Source: a candidate division WS2 bacterium ADurb.Bin280 (lineage in GTDB: Bacteria; Patescibacteriota; UBA1384; DTJR01). From it: a stretch of DNA of 34,443 bases. The notes beneath the pieces were generated by a model. That model searched no databases. It saw only the letters and a list, made by a program, of their open reading frames with translations, and had not been told where the DNA came from. The stretch lies in assembly GCA_002071685.1 (NCBI GenBank), contig MWBO01000028.1, positions 1 through 34,443 on the forward strand, read 5' to 3'. Shown one piece after another: positions 1,470 through 34,443 of this stretch. The position numbers and the translations under genes are program-made. Position 1 is the stretch's first letter; every line of letters begins with the position of its first letter.

Positions 1470-1494
1470 GGGCCCCCGCACATCGCGGGGGCCC
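1470..1494. terminator. Shared hairpin between convergent genes
   Basis: A perfect 10-bp GC-rich stem pairs 1470-1479 with 1485-1494 around a 5-base loop. It lies between the convergent HD-domain gene (stop at 1454) and lipoprotein gene (stop at 1512). On the minus strand a T-containing stretch follows it; on the plus strand there is no T run. It probably works mainly for the minus-strand gene. Confidence 0.6.
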
Positions 1495-1511: not shown

Positions 1512-1835
1512 CTAAATGACCACGCGCCAAGTGACCACATCCCCCTTTTTCAAGACGCAGTCCTTCGCCGGCATTAGTACAAGGCGATCGTTCACTAGAT
1601 ACTGCAGATCGCCCTGGAGTTCACCAACCTCGACGAAAATCGGACCGCTTCCCAAACGACACGAGTAGCGCTTCGTGGTTGCACTAGCGACTGACTCGCC
1701 CCTTTCGGCCACGAATTGCAACGACCGACCGTAGCGTCGTTCGACAACGTCGCCGCTCCCTCCGCCACATCCGAAGAGGGAAAGCACGGCTCCAGATGCA
1801 GCAAGCAGTTTCCCCAAGAACCCTTTTCTGGTCAA
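1512..1835 (-). CDS. Small lipoprotein with a DUF4430-like C-terminal motif
   Basis: This is a 107-residue protein. A basic N-terminus and hydrophobic stretch lead to a lipobox, LFGC, with Cys23 as the expected lipidated residue, then a GGGSG spacer. The C-terminal half is predicted beta-rich and ends in YLVNDRL...LKKGDVVTW (about residues 79-103). This resembles the end of DUF4430/transcobalamin C-terminal domains, where a VNG turn is followed by a GD.(I/V).W strand. That is a pattern match by eye. The start is a TTG with AAAGGA 8 bases upstream, inside the 3' end of the preceding gene, whose stop is only 6 bases away. It may therefore be the third gene of the B12-riboswitch operon. It is GC-rich while its two operon neighbours are AT-rich. 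Cys59 and Cys93 could form a disulfide. Confidence 0.6.
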   Translation of the reverse strand: MTRKGFLGKLLAASGAVLSLFGCGGGSGDVVERRYGRSLQFVAERGESVASATTKRYSCRLGSGPIFVEVGELQGDLQYLVNDRLVLMPAKDCVLKKGDVVTWRVVI

Positions 1836-1841
1836 ACGCCA

Positions 1842-2657
1842 TCATCCTTTCGATTGTTTCACGCGGTTATTGCGTTTACGTCTTGAAGATAAAATTTTGA
1901 AAAATACAAGTATTAAAATCAAAGAAAAAACCAACACACTAACAAACAGTAAATTTTTTAAATTAAATTGAGGCACTAAATCATTTTCAAAAGTGGTGTC
2001 TTGACTGGAAACATTTTTTTGTGCCCGAGGATTATCCTGATCTTTATTTTCTTCAGGCAGATCTTCGGATGTTGTAGCTTCGTTTTCACGTGGCAATATT
2101 TTTTCAGTATCGCCTGAATTATTTTGAGCAGTGCCTTGCTTTACATCAGATGAAAAACTGCCTTTTTCCGATTCGGACACTCGCACATCGTCACCTTGCT
2201 CGGTGGCACTTAAAACAACGGCCTCTTCCTGCTCGAAACAAATATCTGAAAATTTGATATTCGGCAAGCTCGACGATCCGTCGCCAAAAATCCAGCCCTC
2301 AACATCACCATTTTTTACATTTGAGTAATTTACGCCAATATTTTGGAACGACCAAGCTCCATCTTTTTTCCAATATGACCAAAAAAAATCGCCGCTACTC
2401 ATCTGATGGCTTTCTTTTTCACCTTCCTGATCGATACTTACCACAAAGCCGTTTTTTTCAATAATGGTAAAAGGAGATTTTTTCAAAATCGACATACCAG
2501 AAATAGTTTCCTGTTCAAATTCGACACATGCAGTTTTAATCTGCCCATCGCTTTTTTTGACAACAAGACCGGTTTTTGAAGCCAAAGCAATATTTGGATA
2601 AAAAATAGCAAATAAAAAAGCGGGTAGTAAAAAAATGAAAAAATTAGTTATTTTCAT
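1842..2657 (-). CDS. Secreted, membrane-anchored DUF4430 (transcobalamin C-terminal-like) protein
   Basis: This 271-residue envelope protein has a signal peptide (about 1-26, ending NIALA) and one beta-rich domain (about 28-140). A long acidic Ser/Glu/Asp-rich linker follows (about 145-225), then one membrane segment (about 228-250) and a basic tail. The domain shows the DUF4430 order: GLVV strand, FVVSI near 71-75, FFWSYWKKDG near 91-100, and VNYSNVKNGDVEGW near 109-122. This family is related to the beta domain that closes over cobalamin in intrinsic factor and transcobalamin. Cys44 and Cys140 bracket the domain and may pair. It overlaps the toroid gene by 14 bases and has no clear Shine-Dalgarno, so translational coupling is likely. 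The cobalamin riboswitch upstream supports a B12-related role; ligand binding itself is inferred. Confidence 0.7.
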   Translation of the reverse strand: MKITNFFIFLLPAFLFAIFYPNIALASKTGLVVKKSDGQIKTACVEFEQETISGMSILKKSPFTIIEKNGFVVSIDQEGEKESHQMSSGDFFWSYWKKDGAWSFQNIGVNYSNVKNGDVEGWIFGDGSSSLPNIKFSDICFEQEEAVVLSATEQGDDVRVSESEKGSFSSDVKQGTAQNNSGDTEKILPRENEATTSEDLPEENKDQDNPRAQKNVSSQDTTFENDLVPQFNLKNLLFVSVLVFSLILILVFFKILSSRRKRNNRVKQSKG

Positions 2658-3999
2658 ATTTTTTTATCAAGTATTTTGCAAGAATTCCGGCAATCAAACC
2701 TATAACTGCAATACTGAAAATCCAATACCACAAATCATCTGATTTAGATGAAACTGACGAAAGGACTTGCCCGCCCGAACCAACTTTCGACTGATTTGTT
2801 CCGGCCTCTTCCTCATCAAGAGATTTTTTTTTGTCCAAAGCGTCCGCTCGCGATAAGTTGCCAATTTCTTGTTCAGTTGGTTTGTCAGACTCTCGCTGAT
2901 TTGCCATGTCTGTCAAAGTGTTTGCTTCAGGACCGACAACACAATTGGTAGATTCGGCGGTCGGTGAAAGACTGGAAGTTGCCGCAGGACTTGGCGAAAC
3001 AATTGGCGTGGGAGTTGCCAAAGGAGCTGTTGATTTCCATGAAAATAACGCCCCCTCCATAACAGGCAAGAAGGCCTCGTTTTGCGCCAAGAGCACTATC
3101 GAAGTAGTCCACACGGGATTAATCCGTCCGTAGCTCCTGTTAAAATTATAAGATCCATCGGCATTTGCCAGATCGCCAAGATCGTCAAAAATACTTCTTG
3201 AATTTTTTCGCCAAAATAAATCTTCCGGATTTTCGCCCATCGAATATATCGCTTGAATAACAAAAGAATCGGAGAAAGCGTCGCTTTCGGTGGACCACTG
3301 ACCACCGTCATATTTAATCCCACCGGTTGATGTTTGCAAACTTTTCAAATAATTTTTCGCTTGGAGCAAAACATTTACATCAATTTTTTTGCCCGATGAA
3401 ACTAAGGCCATAATTGTTTGCGCTGTAAAATTGCTTTCGGCTCCATAGCCGGAATTCCAGCCACCGTTTTTTTCTTGTCTTGAGACTATGAAGTCAACTG
3501 TTTTTTGCTCGATTGCTCGGCCAGCCGACTTGAGAGATAAGACGCCAAAAACTGTCGAGACGAGATCGCTTCCGATTTGACCATCACTCTTGATTTGCGA
3601 AATTATTTTTTCCGGTAAATTACAGTTTTTTAGTTTTGAACTATCTATAGACGAAGATTCAAGCGCCAAAACCCGCCTCTCTATGTCAGTCAAATTTGTC
3701 AAAGAACAGGCGTCTGATGATGCAAAATCAGCCAAGCTCTTATGGGATCCGACAGTTTTTGCATCATAATGCGATGCGCCAAAGGCAAGCATCGCCCAAT
3801 CCGTTCTAAGAGATCCGGGTGCCTCCTCCCCCGATTCGACAATTCCACCGGTAGATAAATTTTGAAAAGAATAAATGTAGTTTAAAGATTTTTCAATCGA
3901 AGGCGTCGCCTCGGCATCAAGGGGAAAACAAAAACAAGCCGTGAAAAAAACAAAAAACGCTACAAAAAACGTTTTTAAATTTATTGAAAAAAAAGACAC
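2644..3999 (-). CDS. Secreted, membrane-anchored alpha/alpha-toroid protein under B12 riboswitch
   Basis: This 451-residue protein has a signal peptide (about 1-31), a prenyltransferase/squalene-oxidase type alpha/alpha-toroid (about 33-315), a Pro/Ser/Thr linker (about 325-350), a charged spacer and a C-terminal membrane segment (about 425-445). Toroid repeats show as GGWNSG (179-184), GGIKYDGGQW (216-225) and DGSYNF (281-286) between helical pairs. The same fold forms the alpha domain of animal intrinsic factor and transcobalamin. Cyclase DXDD or DDXXD catalytic motifs are absent, which argues against a soluble terpene enzyme. The start is GTG at 3999, with GAGGAGG 3 bases upstream; no better in-frame start exists before the signal peptide. 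It is the first gene after the riboswitch. I infer cobalamin capture outside the membrane, jointly with the DUF4430 protein. An adhesin or glycan-binding role remains possible. Confidence 0.72.
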   Translation of the reverse strand: MSFFSINLKTFFVAFFVFFTACFCFPLDAEATPSIEKSLNYIYSFQNLSTGGIVESGEEAPGSLRTDWAMLAFGASHYDAKTVGSHKSLADFASSDACSLTNLTDIERRVLALESSSIDSSKLKNCNLPEKIISQIKSDGQIGSDLVSTVFGVLSLKSAGRAIEQKTVDFIVSRQEKNGGWNSGYGAESNFTAQTIMALVSSGKKIDVNVLLQAKNYLKSLQTSTGGIKYDGGQWSTESDAFSDSFVIQAIYSMGENPEDLFWRKNSRSIFDDLGDLANADGSYNFNRSYGRINPVWTTSIVLLAQNEAFLPVMEGALFSWKSTAPLATPTPIVSPSPAATSSLSPTAESTNCVVGPEANTLTDMANQRESDKPTEQEIGNLSRADALDKKKSLDEEEAGTNQSKVGSGGQVLSSVSSKSDDLWYWIFSIAVIGLIAGILAKYLIKKYENN

Positions 4000-4000
4000 T

Positions 4001-4017
4001 TTCCTCCTCGGGAATTA
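4001..4017 (-). promoter_or_regulatory. Ribosome-binding site in a small hairpin after the B12 aptamer
   Basis: The strong GAGGAGGAA site of the toroid gene lies directly after the aptamer. TTCC just upstream can pair with the GGAA at its end. No T-run terminator is visible, so control is most likely at translation. Pairing between this loop and aptamer loop L5 is possible but not convincing by eye. Confidence 0.45.
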
Positions 4018-4021
4018 TTTT

Positions 4022-4127
4022 GCCATGCTGGTTTTCTGACTCTCCGCCTGCTGGCGAATTTACAGTAGCGGGACTGTCGCGGAATCTAACCGCAGTTCCC
4101 TCCCGCAATAAAGCGGGATTGCGCATG
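4022..4127 (-). ncRNA. Cobalamin (adenosylcobalamin-type) riboswitch
   Basis: Read on the minus strand, the region carries the conserved order of cobalamin aptamers. P1 is CATGC (4127-4123) pairing with GCATG (4028-4024). A P3-type hairpin has CCCGC/GCGGG arms. The core follows, GGGAA..GCGGTTAGATTCCGC. P5 is ACAGT/ACTGT (4077-4062) with loop CCCGCT, and another hairpin has CGCC/GGCG arms (4056-4045). The B12 box is GAGTCAGAAAACCAGCATGG (about 4043-4024). The aptamer starts at the predicted transcription start and ends about 23 bases before the GTG of the toroid gene. Cobalamin binding would be expected to lower expression of the downstream genes. Confidence 0.93.
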
Positions 4128-4134
4128 TACTGAG

Positions 4135-4163
4135 AACTTACCGCCTTTGCAAAAAGCTGTCAA
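4135..4163 (-). promoter_or_regulatory. Candidate promoter of the riboswitch operon, overlapping the sipW stop
   Basis: A perfect TTGACA on the minus strand (4163-4158) contains the stop codon of the upstream signal peptidase gene. It is followed after 17 bases by TAAGTT (4140-4135), a weak -10. The predicted start near 4128 falls exactly where aptamer stem P1 begins, which supports the call. Confidence 0.5.
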
Positions 4164-4711
4164 GCAGATCTTCGCTTTCTCCCGCTTGCCACCGCTTTTT
4201 TAACTTTTGAGTGAATTTTTTTCATTTCTTCATAGACAATAATAGTTGACGGAATAATGATTATGATAATTAGCCCGGGCAGAGTCTTGGTGGCTCCCAA
4301 TACGTACCCGATTTTTGGAGCGACAAATACCACCCTTCCGCGCACAGCACTACTTGGTATGAGTATTCCGTCAGCATAATCGTTGGCATCACCCTTTGTT
4401 TTAAACAAAAACAAAGGGCCATCCCCGACTATCTCTACGATTCGGTGAGTTACGATTTGAGTTTTTGAGCTTTGATCGCTATCAAAAGAAACGATGTCGT
4501 TGATTTGATATGTTTTTTGCTCTCTAGCAAAAACCAAACTACCCACATCAATGGTCGGCCTCATAGAGCCGGACATCACGGCAAAAGTTTTGTAATTTCC
4601 CTCAAAAGGCAACAGAGAGAACAGCAAGACAAAGCCAATTGATAAAACGAAAATTATTACTATCGCCTCAATAGACTTAGCGAGAAACCTAAGTATTGCG
4701 AATTTTTTCAA
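4160..4711 (-). CDS. sipW: SipW/ER-type signal peptidase I
   Basis: This 183-residue membrane protease has a first membrane segment near 14-35 and a second near 140-160. The catalytic Ser sits in VMSGSMRPTI. The second catalytic residue is the His of THRIVEI rather than the Lys of the usual LepB type. KGDANDYAD matches the later conserved box. The Ser/His form defines the archaeal, ER and SipW branch (S26B). In Bacillus SipW processes TasA and related fibre proteins, and a TasA/camelysin-like gene lies immediately upstream. The start is a TTG with no good Shine-Dalgarno; no better in-frame start exists after the preceding stop. Lower translation than its substrate is plausible, helped by the hairpin at 4742. 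The basic tail is rich in Lys and Arg. Confidence 0.85.
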   Translation of the reverse strand: MKKFAILRFLAKSIEAIVIIFVLSIGFVLLFSLLPFEGNYKTFAVMSGSMRPTIDVGSLVFAREQKTYQINDIVSFDSDQSSKTQIVTHRIVEIVGDGPLFLFKTKGDANDYADGILIPSSAVRGRVVFVAPKIGYVLGATKTLPGLIIIIIIPSTIIVYEEMKKIHSKVKKAVASGRKRRSA

Positions 4712-4741
4712 CTTAACTATGCGCTTCTATTTTTGCACCAG

Positions 4742-4764
4742 AATAATCTTTGATTAAGATTATT
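4742..4764 (-). other. Intercistronic hairpin between tasA-like and sipW
   Basis: A perfect 9-bp AT-rich stem (742-750 with 756-764 of the 4000 block) with a 5-base loop covers the stop of the tasA-like gene. No T run follows, so it is more likely an RNA-stability or partial-termination element than a full terminator. It could keep the protease mRNA below that of its substrate. Confidence 0.5.
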
Positions 4765-5302
4765 TTACGCCTTCGGTTGTAGCGTTGGCAATGAATTCAA
4801 ACTCAGCACTTTTGCTCTGCATTTCGTTGCCATAAGAGGCGGGAAGAGTCAATTTGACAGTAAATCGATTCATCTCTCTAAGAACGGTATCACCGAGAAA
4901 CTCGGGTGAAAAAACTTCTCCCATGTCTTTGAGTTTACCCTTGTAAATAGTGCTGTAGTTTTCTACTTTGACAATTTCGGCATCCAGCGCATTCCAAAGG
5001 GCATCATCACCGGAAGTTTTAACTATTTGCATAGAAACCTTTGTCGGCGCAGTCCCGAAATTTCTAATACCAAACATTCTGGTGATGGTATCACCCGGCT
5101 TCATATTGGCGGCGGATATTTGATACTCACTGGCACCATTTCCCCAGCCCTTCACCTCGTCGCTTGCCCTCAAGTCAACATTCCCTGTTCCAAAAGTCAC
5201 ACCTTTTACCGAATCTGTGTCGGTAAAGTATGCTTGAGTTGCCCCTACAGCAATCGCAGAAACGGCCAAGACCGTTAAGACGCTTTTTGCTATTCCCCAC
5301 AT
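4760..5302 (-). CDS. tasA: TasA/camelysin (CalY)-family secreted fibre-like protein
   Basis: This 180-residue secreted protein has a hydrophobic signal sequence with the pattern GATQAYFTDTDSVKG near 20-34. This is the alanine-then-AYFTD signature of SipW-processed proteins. The beta-rich body includes FGTGNVDLRAS, KPGDTITRMFGIRNFGTAPTKVSM and a closing strand EFEFIANAT, consistent with the jelly-roll fold of TasA and camelysin. Family members form biofilm fibres or act as surface metalloproteases; no metalloprotease motif is visible here. The start is ATG 5302 with GGAGG five bases upstream; an upstream in-frame TTG at 5317 would swallow that site. A perfect consensus promoter sits 36 bases upstream, suggesting strong expression. 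The next gene encodes its likely peptidase. Confidence 0.78.
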   Translation of the reverse strand: MWGIAKSVLTVLAVSAIAVGATQAYFTDTDSVKGVTFGTGNVDLRASDEVKGWGNGASEYQISAANMKPGDTITRMFGIRNFGTAPTKVSMQIVKTSGDDALWNALDAEIVKVENYSTIYKGKLKDMGEVFSPEFLGDTVLREMNRFTVKLTLPASYGNEMQSKSAEFEFIANATTEGVK

Positions 5303-5337
5303 AAGTCCTCCAATCAATAAATTTTGACTATACGAGT

Positions 5338-20713: not shown

Positions 20714-21718
20714 ATGATTGAGATGAACTTCGCCGAACGATATGCCGGAGCGGCGAAAATGGCGCAGTCAATCCTGTGCGTAGGACTTGATCCGACGCCG
20801 GAACTGACCCCGCCTGAGTTCGGGCAGGGCATTGACGGGTACTACGCCTACATGTACGCGGTGGGCGAGGTTGCCGCCGCAAAGGTGGCGATCGTCAAAC
20901 CGAACATCGCGCACTACGAGGCAGAGGGCCACGAAGGTGTCGAGATGCTTGGCTTACTGACAGGGGAGCTCCAGAACATGGGGCTCATGGTCATCCTCGA
21001 TGCCAAGCGCGCCGACATCGGGCGCACGATGGAGATGTGCGGAAAGTACCTGTTCGGGCAGTTCTACGTCGATGCCGCCACTTGCCACAGCTACTTCGGG
21101 GCAACATTCCTGCCCTCGCAGGACGGCAAGTCACAGGGCTGGCTGAAGTATCTCGAGCAGGGGAAGTGCGCCATCGCCATGGTCCGCACCTCCAATCCCG
21201 AGGGAGACGACCTGCAGGAAAGCCGCCTCGAAGACGACAGGCCAGTCTATGAACTGCTGGCCTCCAAGGTGGCAACATGGAACAAGTGGGCGCAAGACTT
21301 GACCCGAGGAGTCGGTGGTGTCGGGGCGGTAGTTGGCGCCACAACTCCGGAGCAGGCCATAAAGTGTCGGGCGACAGCTCCCGACGCGTTCTTTCTGGTA
21401 CCTGGTTTCGGAACCCAGGGCGCCGGACCCTCCGCCGCTGTAGCGGGTATGCCTCGCGACGGCAAACTACTGCTGACCGTGAACAGCTCGAGCGCCATCA
21501 CCGGTGCTTGGCGCAACAAGGACGGTACACGCAAAGGGGGCGATGTACTCGAACACGTCGCAAAAGCGATCGACGAGGCTAACGACCAGCTCAACCAAGC
21601 CCTCGTCGAGTCACTGGGGTTTGATCCGTACACGGACACTCCGTCTGGAGTTCCGTTCTACGAGCGACTCAAGCCGGTAGACAAGATTGGAGGAAAGTCA
21701 TGCACAACGCAGGAGTAG
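20714..21718 (+). CDS. pyrF: Orotidine-5'-phosphate decarboxylase
   Basis: This 334-residue TIM-barrel enzyme converts OMP to UMP. Strand 1 is LCVGLDPTPE (21-30) and the substrate Lys is in VKPNIAHYE (61-69). The catalytic array is DAKRADIG (96-103), with the family K..D spacing. MVRTSNPEGDD follows, then VPGFGTQG as the phosphate-binding loop. The length fits the longer PyrF type (about 270-330 residues) rather than the E. coli short type. ATG 20714 has GAGGGAG 6 bases upstream; ATG 20723 is less well placed. It is strongly GC-rich against AT-rich serS and greA neighbours, which suggests transfer. It overlaps the OPRTase-like gene by 19 bases. Confidence 0.95.
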   Translation: MIEMNFAERYAGAAKMAQSILCVGLDPTPELTPPEFGQGIDGYYAYMYAVGEVAAAKVAIVKPNIAHYEAEGHEGVEMLGLLTGELQNMGLMVILDAKRADIGRTMEMCGKYLFGQFYVDAATCHSYFGATFLPSQDGKSQGWLKYLEQGKCAIAMVRTSNPEGDDLQESRLEDDRPVYELLASKVATWNKWAQDLTRGVGGVGAVVGATTPEQAIKCRATAPDAFFLVPGFGTQGAGPSAAVAGMPRDGKLLLTVNSSSAITGAWRNKDGTRKGGDVLEHVAKAIDEANDQLNQALVESLGFDPYTDTPSGVPFYERLKPVDKIGGKSCTTQE

Positions 21719-22422
21719 ACGGCGAACTTCGAAGGCTGCTGAACCTGTTCCAAGGAGTCTACGAAGTCCGCAGAGGCAGTGCCGGAGAACGCCTTTCCCC
21801 GCTGGTTGGCTACGCCGGCAAGTACGTTGACGGTGACTGCGGAACAAAGGCGTATATCGGCGAGGTTTACTACAACTTCGCCATGATCGAGCAGCACCCG
21901 AGGACGCTGAAGCGTTTCGCCGAGGCAGTCAAGCCACAGATCCATTTTGACGTGGTGGTAGGCATGCCGATGGGCGGAATCGCATTCTCGTTCGCCCTCA
22001 CGGACGAAATAGGTTGCCGTTTCACCTTCGCTGAAAAGAAGGTGGCGAGAGTCGCGACCGGTCTGGAACGGGAAGAGACGCAACTGGTCATCTCTCGACA
22101 CATCATCGCAGAGGGGTCGCGGGTTCTGATCGGCGAAGATGTCTGCCACAACTTCTCGACAATCGCCGATGCCATCGGCCTGATCGAGAACATCGGCGCC
22201 AAGGTTGTTGGGATCGTCTGCGCCATCAATCGCTCGTGTGAAAATGGCACAGTGATTCGCAACTATCTTGACGTTCCGGTCTTTGGCGCCCTCAGCCTGC
22301 CGACCGAGGAGTACCGCCAAGACGACCCCTACGTCGCCTCCGACATCGAGGCCGGCAACGTCATCTGGAAGCCGAAAGAGTGCTGGAAGCAGATGATCGC
22401 CTCCATGCACGGCACATGGTAG
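21700..22422 (+). CDS. Orotate phosphoribosyltransferase-like protein with altered PRPP loop
   Basis: This 240-residue type I phosphoribosyltransferase is coupled to pyrF by a 19-base overlap and a GGAGGA site inside pyrF. OPRTase makes OMP from orotate and PRPP, the step before PyrF. FDVVVGMPMGGIAFSFAL and FTFAEKKVARV match the OPRTase core, including the conserved basic pair. The PRPP loop reads VLIGEDVCHNFSTIADAI (142-159). The acidic ED pair is kept, but the usual TTG(G/T)S becomes CHNFS. That alters the diphosphate-binding glycines, so activity or substrate may differ. The pyrF partner is the main reason to call it PyrE-like. The gene is GC-rich and followed by a strong terminator. Confidence 0.72.
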   Translation: MHNAGVDGELRRLLNLFQGVYEVRRGSAGERLSPLVGYAGKYVDGDCGTKAYIGEVYYNFAMIEQHPRTLKRFAEAVKPQIHFDVVVGMPMGGIAFSFALTDEIGCRFTFAEKKVARVATGLEREETQLVISRHIIAEGSRVLIGEDVCHNFSTIADAIGLIENIGAKVVGIVCAINRSCENGTVIRNYLDVPVFGALSLPTEEYRQDDPYVASDIEAGNVIWKPKECWKQMIASMHGTW

Positions 22423-22438
22423 GGCAAGAACGCAACCA

Positions 22439-22475
22439 CCGGCGCCCGCTCGAAAGGGCGGGCGCCGCCTCATTT
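22439..22475 (+). terminator. Terminator of the pyrF operon
   Basis: An 11-pair stem (22441-22451 with 22456-22466, one G-T pair) is closed by a GAAA tetraloop. A T-rich tract follows. Confidence 0.85.
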
Positions 22476-33119: not shown

Positions 33120-33611
33120 TCAGTTAGCGATCTCTACAGAATCGCCGTAGATCATTCCCATGGGTGGGGCAGGGGTGGTCCAGACCGCGATTGTCCCGAA
33201 GGATGTATCGCGGACTGCCCTCACGATAGCGAGGGTTTTTCCCCTAACCCTGATGACGTCGCCCGACTTAACGTCCAACCCGGCGACACCGAAGTGGTCT
33301 TCGGCCATCGGGGAGGCCACTGATGGTGGAGCCTGTGAACCGATCTTGGGTAGCATGCTTTGCTCCCTTTCGATCCGAGACTTCTCATCCGCCGACAGTT
33401 GTGCCCACTTCGGCAGTGTATAGTCGGCGCCGTTGTCAGCGCGGGCCATCATTGCCGACTCTCTGGCGCTGGCGATGATCGCCTGCCCGAAGATGGTCAG
33501 TACCACCAGCCCAAGCAGGACCAACAGCATCACTCCAATGGGGCGGTTGGATCTTGGCTTGGATACGACTGTGGGGGTGTGGCCCCCAGCGGTAGCTACT
33601 CTCGGAGCCAT
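33120..33611 (-). CDS. Single-pass membrane protein of unknown function, GC-rich
   Basis: This 163-residue protein has a basic N-terminal tail (about 1-24), one strong membrane segment (PIGVMLLVLLGLVVLTIFGQ, about 25-44) and an outside portion. A helical, charged region (LPKWAQLSADEKSRIERE) is followed by a small beta domain: VKSGDVIRVRGKTLAIVRAV...FGTIAVWTTP...IYGDSVEI. That domain could be an OB or SH3-like barrel. I recognise no family. The start is secure: GAGGAGGG lies 5 bases before ATG 33611, and a near-consensus promoter sits at 33724-33752. It is GC-rich, with its own promoter and terminator, like the other GC-rich units here. Confidence 0.75.
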   Translation of the reverse strand: MAPRVATAGGHTPTVVSKPRSNRPIGVMLLVLLGLVVLTIFGQAIIASARESAMMARADNGADYTLPKWAQLSADEKSRIEREQSMLPKIGSQAPPSVASPMAEDHFGVAGLDVKSGDVIRVRGKTLAIVRAVRDTSFGTIAVWTTPAPPMGMIYGDSVEIAN

Positions 33612-33723
33612 GATAGCCCTCCTCGACCCGCGGGCTACGCGGATCTGATGTCAATGATCGCGTGCGGAGGTCAAGGTCTTGCGCAAGCAAGTCTCCTTGT
33701 CTCGTCCGCATACTGATCCGGTG

Positions 33724-33752
33724 ACTATAGCACATCTGAAGGTGAAAGTCAA
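33724..33752 (-). promoter_or_regulatory. Promoter of the 33120-33611 gene
   Basis: TTGACT (33752-33747), a 17-base spacer and TATAGT (33729-33724) are on the minus strand. The expected start near 33717 gives a GC-rich leader of about 106 bases before ATG 33611, long for this window. Confidence 0.82.
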
Positions 33753-33832
33753 GATCATAGGACACACTAGATCCACACAGCAGACAGCAGATCTGCGTAC
33801 CAGATACACGTAGGTCTCAAGCAGAGTGCTCA

Positions 33833-33861
33833 ACCATTTACACCTCGTAGGTGTAAATGGT
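33833..33861. repeat. Near-perfect inverted repeat, 13-bp arms
   Basis: Arms 33833-33845 and 33849-33861 are exact complements around a 3-base CGT centre. There is no T run after it. It lies between the divergent promoters, about 80 bases upstream of the minus-strand one. Repressor operator or stable RNA/DNA hairpin are both possible. Confidence 0.85.
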
Positions 33862-33890
33862 GGTTGTGGGTAGTTGAGAGTGGTTGAGAG
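33861..33890 (+). repeat. Three tandem 10-base repeats
   Basis: TGGTTGTGGG, TAGTTGAGAG and TGGTTGAGAG follow one another without a gap, directly after the inverted repeat. A 10-base period places each copy on the same DNA face, as in cooperative protein-binding sites. Confidence 0.65.
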
Positions 33891-33894
33891 TGTG

Positions 33895-33929
33895 GCTTCG
33901 TTCTTTCACCCGAAGCGATGTCAAAGAAC
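33895..33929 (+). other. Possible H-type pseudoknot
   Basis: GCTTCG (33895-33900) pairs with CGAAGC (33911-33916). GTTCTTT (33900-33906), starting at the last base of that arm and running into its loop, pairs with AAAGAAC (33923-33929). The two helices share one base and cross. It may be chance, but both helices are perfect. Confidence 0.35.
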
Positions 33930-34041
33930 TTGTATTCAGCTTGTCACTGCCGGCGCAATAGAGCTACCAACGCCCGCAGACTTACAGCTTTTCTGTTGGC
34001 ACGATTATAACATACAGAAATTGCTTTTTAAAACTGCCGGA

Positions 34042-34071
34042 TTGACAAATGAAGTAAAACTGTTCTATTAT
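34042..34071 (+). promoter_or_regulatory. Sigma70 promoter of the 34133 gene
   Basis: A perfect TTGACA (34042-34047), an 18-base spacer and TATTAT (34066-34071) are on the plus strand. The expected start is near 34078. Confidence 0.8.
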
Positions 34072-34078
34072 TAATATT

Positions 34079-34094
34079 CAGCCCGATAGGGCTG
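34079..34094 (+). other. 5'-end mRNA hairpin
   Basis: A 6-bp stem (34079-34084 with 34089-34094) with loop GATA forms at the very 5' end of the predicted transcript. Such hairpins protect mRNAs from decay. Confidence 0.55.
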
Positions 34095-34132
34095 GAATGT
34101 TGCAAATTGACACGAGAGGAGAGAACCACGCC

Positions 34133-34357
34133 ATGAGGTCAGCTGCGAAGATCAAGGCACGGTGCTCGCTGATTGTCGGAAATGATGAGATCGTGAGAAT
34201 CGTTGCCGAGAGCTCGAGCCCTACAGCTGCGCACGAAATGGTAAGCAAGAGGTTTGTCGACGACGAGACACGCAAGGCAGCAAGGTGGCTCGCGGTCTTG
34301 CGTCGCGATTACCCCAGCGATTACGACGAACTCATGAAGTCGCGTGAGTGCCGATAG
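34133..34357 (+). CDS. Small helical protein of unknown function, GC-rich
   Basis: This 74-residue, charged, mostly helical protein contains EIVRIVAESSSPTAAHEMVS and RKAARWLAVLRRDYPSDYDE. I recognise no family and see no signal peptide. ATG 34133 is chosen over the in-frame ATG at 34097 because GAGGAGAG lies 10 bases before it, inside the longer version. It has a strong promoter and a 5' hairpin, and is followed 58 bases later by another start, so the two are probably an operon. Confidence 0.65.
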   Translation: MRSAAKIKARCSLIVGNDEIVRIVAESSSPTAAHEMVSKRFVDDETRKAARWLAVLRRDYPSDYDELMKSRECR

Positions 34358-34415
34358 ATGAGAGCATCTACCCCTAAGCCAAACCACTACGGTAAGGCAA
34401 AGAGAGGAACGGAAA

Positions 34416-34443
34416 ATGAAGCGGAGAACTCTAGCCATTGATG
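34416..34443 (+). CDS. Start of a further gene, cut by the window end
   Basis: ATG 34416 follows a purine-rich AGAGAGGAACGG site and opens MKRRTLAID before the window ends. The alternative frame from ATG 34358, right after the previous stop, gives 27 codons ending at 34441 but lacks a ribosome site. Too little is visible for a function. Confidence 0.45.

Follow-up and report, generated by a model that had tools for sequence, protein, structure and literature searches.

We analyzed the complete contig MWBO01000028.1 (contig C28; 34,443 nucleotides, hereafter the window) from the genome of candidate division WS2 bacterium ADurb.Bin280, focusing on a cobalamin riboswitch and the two overlapping genes that follow it on the minus strand. 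One gene encodes an exported, membrane-anchored α/α-toroid protein, and the other an exported, membrane-anchored protein that appears to be remotely related to DUF4430. The combined data make it probable that this locus provides the capture stage of a B12 (corrinoid) salvage route that ends in class II ribonucleotide reduction. An initial annotation had proposed a B12-linked toroid and DUF4430-type system on the outer face of the membrane, and this central proposal was sustained; no BtuC (FecCD), CobS, or EcfT was detected in the organism. The source genome comprises 786,719 bases in 65 contigs and is 88% complete. For comparison, 287 sampled genomes of the same phylum were used; genome sizes across this phylum are small, ranging from 0.4 to about 2 Mb.

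The cobalamin riboswitch and its gene pair

The aptamer was detected by cmscan at positions 4009 to 4143 of the minus strand as a full-length match (model positions 1-189) to the cobalamin riboswitch family RF00174. It scored 36.7 bits against a gathering cut-off of 31.5, with an E-value of 5.7e-6 for the whole window and 6.7e-8 for a 401-base region. The cobalamin aptamer recognized in the initial annotation therefore passed the covariance model; its assigned span of 4022-4127 proved to be the core of the element, but the full match is wider. This is the sole cobalamin riboswitch in its own genome. An RF00174 element also precedes loci of relatives (L003, L004, and L009), and AdoCbl-II switches precede further toroid or DUF4430 genes (L008, L125, and L144).

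Directly 3′ of the aptamer lies a candidate expression platform, a short hairpin (UUCC-CGAGGA-GGAA; 4001 to 4014, minus strand) that contains the Shine-Dalgarno sequence of the toroid gene (GAGGAGG, 4003-4009). This hairpin, UUCCCGAGGAGGAA, is identical in the window and in the homologous loci L022 and L023, whose proteins are only ~40% identical, and its stem is weak when taken alone (-2.5 to -3.8 kcal/mol). A terminator-like site was searched for between the aptamer and the start codon, and none was found. Because the Shine-Dalgarno sequence sits in an identical hairpin 3′ of the aptamer, the riboswitch would be expected to act on translation of the toroid gene, and its position suggests that it directly controls the gene pair. 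The start of the aptamer lies ~17 nt past the stop codon of an upstream SipW-type signal-peptidase gene; because this distance is so short, the aptamer would be transcribed either by read-through from the upstream operon or from a promoter within the signal-peptidase gene. The region directly upstream of the riboswitch (4160-5317, minus strand) encodes this SipW-type signal peptidase together with a camelysin/TasA-like protein. Elsewhere in the phylum, cobalamin riboswitches also adjoin genes of unassigned function, such as those for ~300-aa proteins in L096, L101, and L104, and the B12 regulon of the phylum may therefore be wider than uptake.

The toroid gene (2644 to 3999, minus strand) has a GTG start and encodes 451 aa, comprising an export segment, an α/α-toroid domain (residues 30-319; 3043-3912), a linker, and a C-terminal transmembrane segment (residues 427-445; 2665-2721). 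The second gene (1842 to 2657, minus strand) has an ATG start and encodes 271 aa, with a signal peptide, a putative DUF4430-related domain (residues 27-150; 2208-2579), an acidic linker, and a C-terminal transmembrane segment (residues 237-255; 1893-1949). The two genes overlap by 14 bp (2644 to 2657), an arrangement that probably couples their translation.

Searches of the PDB with the two proteins singly returned nothing useful, and family profiles were required. The profile of the toroid family (A1) matched squalene-hopene cyclases (E down to 1e-38), prenyltransferases, and complement TED domains. With the window protein alone, SQHop_cyclase_C was found at 1.2e-5, just under its cut-off; the best NCBIfam match was SCO2321 (NF053823) with 31.4 bits, far under the cut-off of 300 bits, and Pfam PF01122 gave no match. 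By these profile comparisons, the protein belongs to the toroid superfamily of terpene cyclases, prenyltransferases, and TED domains. Its earlier description as an exported, membrane-anchored α/α-toroid was borne out by the N-terminal hydrophobic export segment, the C-terminal transmembrane segment, and the matches of profile A1 to toroids in the PDB.

For the second protein, the DUF4430 assignment of the initial annotation was weaker than had been stated. The export signal, the membrane-anchor segment, and the GDVEGW signature were confirmed, along with two conserved tryptophans of the DUF4430 alignment, but Pfam DUF4430 (PF14478, cut-off 23.8 bits) did not match the protein, which is rather of the SCO2322 type (NCBIfam NF040672; E 1.4e-5, 25.5 bits, far under the cut-off of 85 bits). 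A split relative (L024) reached 4.1e-4 and 21.2 bits against Pfam DUF4430, also under the cut-off. When a profile of the domains from the window, L022, L023, and L024 was compared with a DUF4430 profile by hhalign, a probability of 93.9% and an E-value of 1.6e-7 were obtained, which points to a remote relationship. This DUF4430 profile had been built from phylum proteins that are linked to a riboswitch or a toroid, and against the PDB it matched gastric intrinsic factor (E 2e-6) and transcobalamin-1 (5.5e-5) in their C-terminal domains; the profile of the four window-type domains, compared with the PDB directly, matched nothing relevant. The link from the window domain through DUF4430 to intrinsic factor is thus supported in two steps, not one, and the comparison with intrinsic factor drawn initially was upheld for the family of riboswitch-linked DUF4430 proteins.

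Toroid and DUF4430-type domains across the phylum

Homologues of the window toroid were found in 18 other genomes of the 287, giving 19 carriers that span 14 family labels. (A first scan of genome contigs with the toroid had found no relative, and a second match from the toroid search, on contig C65, was rejected as the low-complexity tail of an unrelated repeat protein.) At all 19 toroid loci, a DUF4430-type domain was present in the same protein or in an adjacent gene; some of these hits had served to train the model, and independent ones include L026, L027, L030, L033, L034, L035, and L039. For 11 toroid genes, a cobalamin riboswitch is located at most 2.5 kb upstream in the same orientation, compared with ~0.02 expected. 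Moreover, a riboswitch was found in 13 of the 19 toroid genomes versus 45 of the 268 others (p 3e-6), and the membrane protein family DUF6580 in 19/19 versus 63/268 (Fisher p 9e-12), p-values that overstate independence because the sampled genomes are related.

The closest fused homologues, L022 and L023, come from the same order as the window genome and carry both window modules on one chain, arranged as toroid, transmembrane helix, short basic loop, second hydrophobic segment, DUF4430-type domain, and transmembrane helix. The second hydrophobic segment ends in a signal-peptidase-like site. We regard this fusion as a natural sign, read from sequence, that the window genes cooperate and that their products lie on the same membrane face. 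Among relatives, the layouts are split, fused, and mixed; given that split and fused forms alternate, splitting was dropped as the novelty of the system, and the separation into two proteins, which had initially been taken as special, is not.

Some features of the locus would also suit a different function. Toroids of this superfamily occur in enzymes and complement-like proteins as well, the clade of the window is without the NDD motif present in other toroid members, and the locus stands beside SipW-type signal-peptidase and TasA/camelysin-like surface genes. The pair might then bind another ligand or surface, such as a corrinoid-carrying protein or a cell partner, and the riboswitch would tie its expression to B12 status, for instance during attachment to a B12-supplying host. 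We consider this alternative improbable because the toroid is consistently paired with both a DUF4430-type domain and DUF6580, and DUF6580 in turn is linked to riboswitches and adjoins NrdJ and CobA.

DUF6580 and the B12 genes on contig C8

The initial annotation had noted that neither a transporter nor a B12-dependent enzyme is encoded in the window. This is correct for the window, but a candidate importer and B12 enzymes are encoded elsewhere, on contig C8, where nrdR, nrdJ, cobA, a DM13 lipoprotein gene, a DUF6580 gene, and trxA (thioredoxin) follow one another on one strand as an operon. The NrdJ protein (1079 aa) is a class II ribonucleotide reductase (NF005122, 1205 bits over a cut-off of 859; TIGR02504, 598.7 over 399.95), and the adenosyltransferase is of the CobA/CobO/BtuR type (178.5 bits). 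Across the phylum, a clear B12-dependent ribonucleotide reductase was present in 172 of the 287 sampled genomes. A second NrdJ-like reductase of 579 aa, under the TIGR02504 cut-off, is encoded on contig C16 (L046, 2356-4095). The DM13 lipoprotein (L045, 9662-10243 on C8), located between the adenosyltransferase and DUF6580, matched PF10517 with 28.3 bits (cut-off 25) and may have a redox function at the cell surface in the reduction of cobalamin.

Several observations point to DUF6580 (PF20221) as a candidate for the missing B12 importer. Its gene adjoins the toroid gene in L025, L031, L032, L034, and L036, and runs of riboswitch, DUF4430, and DUF6580 without a toroid occur in L080, L085, L086, and L100, with nrdJ-cobA preceding the run in two of these loci. 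A cobalamin riboswitch is located no more than 4 kb upstream of 15 DUF6580 genes (~0.08 expected), and 34 genomes have DUF6580 and NrdJ on one strand at a distance of up to 6 kb. When the DUF6580 profile was searched against the PDB, exactly one chain was matched (6FNP chain A, E 1.3e-5), which belongs to ECF-CbrT, the B12 transporter of the energy-coupling factor (ECF) type from Lactobacillus delbrueckii (PMC5997447). The nearest named relative is encoded in a Berkelbacteria genome, where nrdJ, cobA, and DUF6580 are ordered as on contig C8. An AlphaFold model of a Berkelbacteria homologue (pLDDT 91.5) placed ECF S-components at PDB ranks 1-3, with probabilities of 0.96-1.00 and TM-scores of about 0.6, although the E-values were weak (0.1 or more). 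By the CbrT profile match and the fold predicted for the Berkelbacteria homologue, the DUF6580 protein of the window genome would represent the S-component of an ECF-type B12 transporter. DUF6580 is also found far beyond the phylum (L106-L185), in Bacteroidota, Omnitrophota, Ignavibacteria, and Planctomycetes; in several Omnitrophota loci it directly follows a CobA-type adenosyltransferase.

The genome-wide search for B12 transporters and enzymes thus recovered DUF6580, NrdJ, and CobA on contig C8, but neither EcfT nor BtuC. In family searches of the window genome, in which absences are provisional because the assembly is 88% complete, no match was found to CbiQ/EcfT, FecCD/BtuC (PF01032), CobS, or B12-binding PF02310 enzymes (MetH-type enzymes and mutases). 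As judged from these assignments, the genome covers each stage of B12 handling, from capture through import and activation to use, with import lacking a recognizable energy module. It could be argued that the pair is instead an accessory of a conventional, ATP-driven ECF B12 transporter, with an EcfT and ATPases that have diverged beyond recognition or are missing from the assembly. In Streptomyces sp. SAT1, a riboswitch, an SCO2322/SCO2321-type toroid gene, and a hypothetical gene are followed by genes for a CbiQ-type EcfT and an ABC ATPase, and CbrT requires the ECF module in E. coli (PMC5997447). However, EcfT was found in only 5 of the 287 phylum genomes, just one of which, with a weak, stop-containing EcfT match, has DUF6580, and the same EcfT model exceeded its cut-off in 9 of 14 control genomes. 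A conventional transporter therefore appears unlikely here.

In the salvage route that we favor, low intracellular cobalamin would leave the riboswitch unbound and the Shine-Dalgarno sequence in the 3′ hairpin free, so that the two coupled genes are translated. Both products would be exported and anchored by their C-terminal helices, placing the toroid and the small β-domain on the outer face, where they may jointly hold a corrinoid as in intrinsic factor and transcobalamin. The corrinoid would be handed to the DUF6580 membrane protein, a putative CbrT relative, and carried inward without a recognizable EcfT. Inside, the CobA/CobO/BtuR-type enzyme would adenosylate and thereby trap it as the cofactor of NrdJ, which would use it for ribonucleotide reduction and be re-reduced by thioredoxin. 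The broader proposal, that a two-part anchored clamp and an ECF-module-free DUF6580 form a B12 import route without an ATP module that is widespread in the phylum and feeds the class II reductase, is at present evenly balanced.

In addition to the relatedness of the sampled genomes and the provisional nature of absences that rest on family searches, several points weigh against this route. In an E. coli assay of the type used for the solitary S-like protein BtuM, CbrT without the ECF module gave no B12 growth (PMC5997447). In their own genome, DUF6580 and the window pair are encoded on separate contigs, although the toroid and DUF6580 are adjacent in six other genomes. The second domain is tied to DUF4430 through weak hidden Markov model matches and profile-profile comparison, and at such divergence ligand residues cannot be mapped. 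The best AlphaFold model of this domain had a pLDDT of 79.9 and a pTM of 0.73 (the other four models, pLDDT ~71), and a structure search of the PDB with it found no match to a DUF4430-type or any other fold. Because of this result, an intrinsic-factor fold is not claimed for the second domain.

The pair could also be a decaying or redundant copy, in which case B12 uptake would depend solely on two proteins encoded on contig C8, DUF6580 and the DM13 lipoprotein. In G275, a genome from the same family, DUF6580 and a riboswitch-linked DUF4430 lipoprotein of 123 aa are present but no toroid was detected, so the toroid appears dispensable in some relatives. In the window, both open reading frames are intact and overlapping and retain the segments for export and anchoring; the Shine-Dalgarno hairpin has stayed identical to that of the fused homologues despite the divergence of the proteins. 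We therefore judge a decaying copy to be very improbable.

Flanking features and comparison with known systems

A possible third gene lies 6 bp downstream of the pair (1512 to 1835, minus strand). It encodes a lipoprotein-like product of 107 aa with a DUF4430-like end (E 0.068 against Pfam DUF4430, under the cut-off), and its G+C content is 0.56 versus 0.36-0.42 for the gene pair; its membership in the unit is uncertain. It is followed by a strong terminator-like stem-loop of 11 pairs, 10 of them G-C (1470 to 1494, minus strand). Small GC-rich open reading frames with twin-arginine-like leaders also occur beside toroid genes or riboswitches in relatives (L026, 5559-6077; L035, 5207-5761; L039, 7678-8016; L105, 1665-2138). 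Within this genome of ~41% G+C, genes or short stretches of 54-60% were found in the window at 2-1835, 20714-22473, and 33120-34441, and in L046 at 604-1068. Recent transfer or joins made during assembly could explain these stretches, among which is a PyrF/PyrE-like gene pair flanked by serS and greA.

A search of the literature (open-licence papers only), covering DUF6580, SCO2321/2322, transcobalamin-like bacterial proteins, and B12 in the phylum, found no paper that describes this system or mentions DUF6580, and no description of how the NrdJ carriers of the phylum obtain B12. The locus together with DUF6580 offers a concrete, testable route for this cofactor supply and gives both DUF6580 and the SCO2321/SCO2322-type proteins a likely function. 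If the route proves true, the functionally unassigned DUF6580 would become a family of B12 transporters.

The animal carriers intrinsic factor, transcobalamin, and haptocorrin (PF01122 with a C-terminal DUF4430-type domain) combine an α/α-toroid and a small β-domain outside the cell, and the window pair resembles them in its toroid and in a putative domain of the second kind. The window domains lie on two chains, each with a predicted membrane anchor, whereas intrinsic factor and transcobalamin hold both domains on one chain. In the Streptomyces SCO2321 and SCO2322 families, which occur with an ECF module, a cobalamin riboswitch likewise stands in front, and the YWSYW and G-x-V-x-x-W signatures are shared; these families are the best NCBIfam matches of the window proteins, at scores far under the family cut-offs. 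In contrast to the window genome, the plasmid of Streptomyces sp. SAT1 carries EcfT and the ABC ATPase within the cluster. The Lactobacillus delbrueckii CbrT cluster consists of nrdJ-cbrS-cbrT-pduO (PMC5997447), and in L. rhamnosus a DUF4430 gene adjoins rtpR (PMC9963975). Lactobacilli thus follow the same logic as found here, with a B12-dependent reductase, an S-component, an adenosyltransferase, and a DUF4430 gene nearby. Compared with the CbrT cluster, no ECF module was found in the window genome, a toroid is added, and a CobA/CobO/BtuR-type enzyme takes the place of PduO.

A precedent is BtuM, a solitary S-like protein encoded beside btuR, which supports B12 uptake in E. coli (PMC6072759). 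BtuM and DUF6580 are alike in their S-component fold (predicted for DUF6580), in the lack of EcfT in the organism, and in a nearby adenosyltransferase gene. BtuM is reported to share no sequence relationship with other proteins, in contrast to the CbrT-like DUF6580, and no capture proteins for BtuM are described in the passages of that paper considered here. Given the Lactobacillus and Streptomyces clusters, which are built on the same principle and include an ECF module, the window arrangement is therefore best described as a variant of transcobalamin-like/CbrT uptake, with anchored two-part toroid/DUF4430 capture, a CbrT-like DUF6580, and no EcfT. Taken together, these comparisons suggest that bacteria have counterparts of the two-domain animal B12 carriers, in split, fused, and membrane-anchored form, that are controlled by B12 riboswitches.

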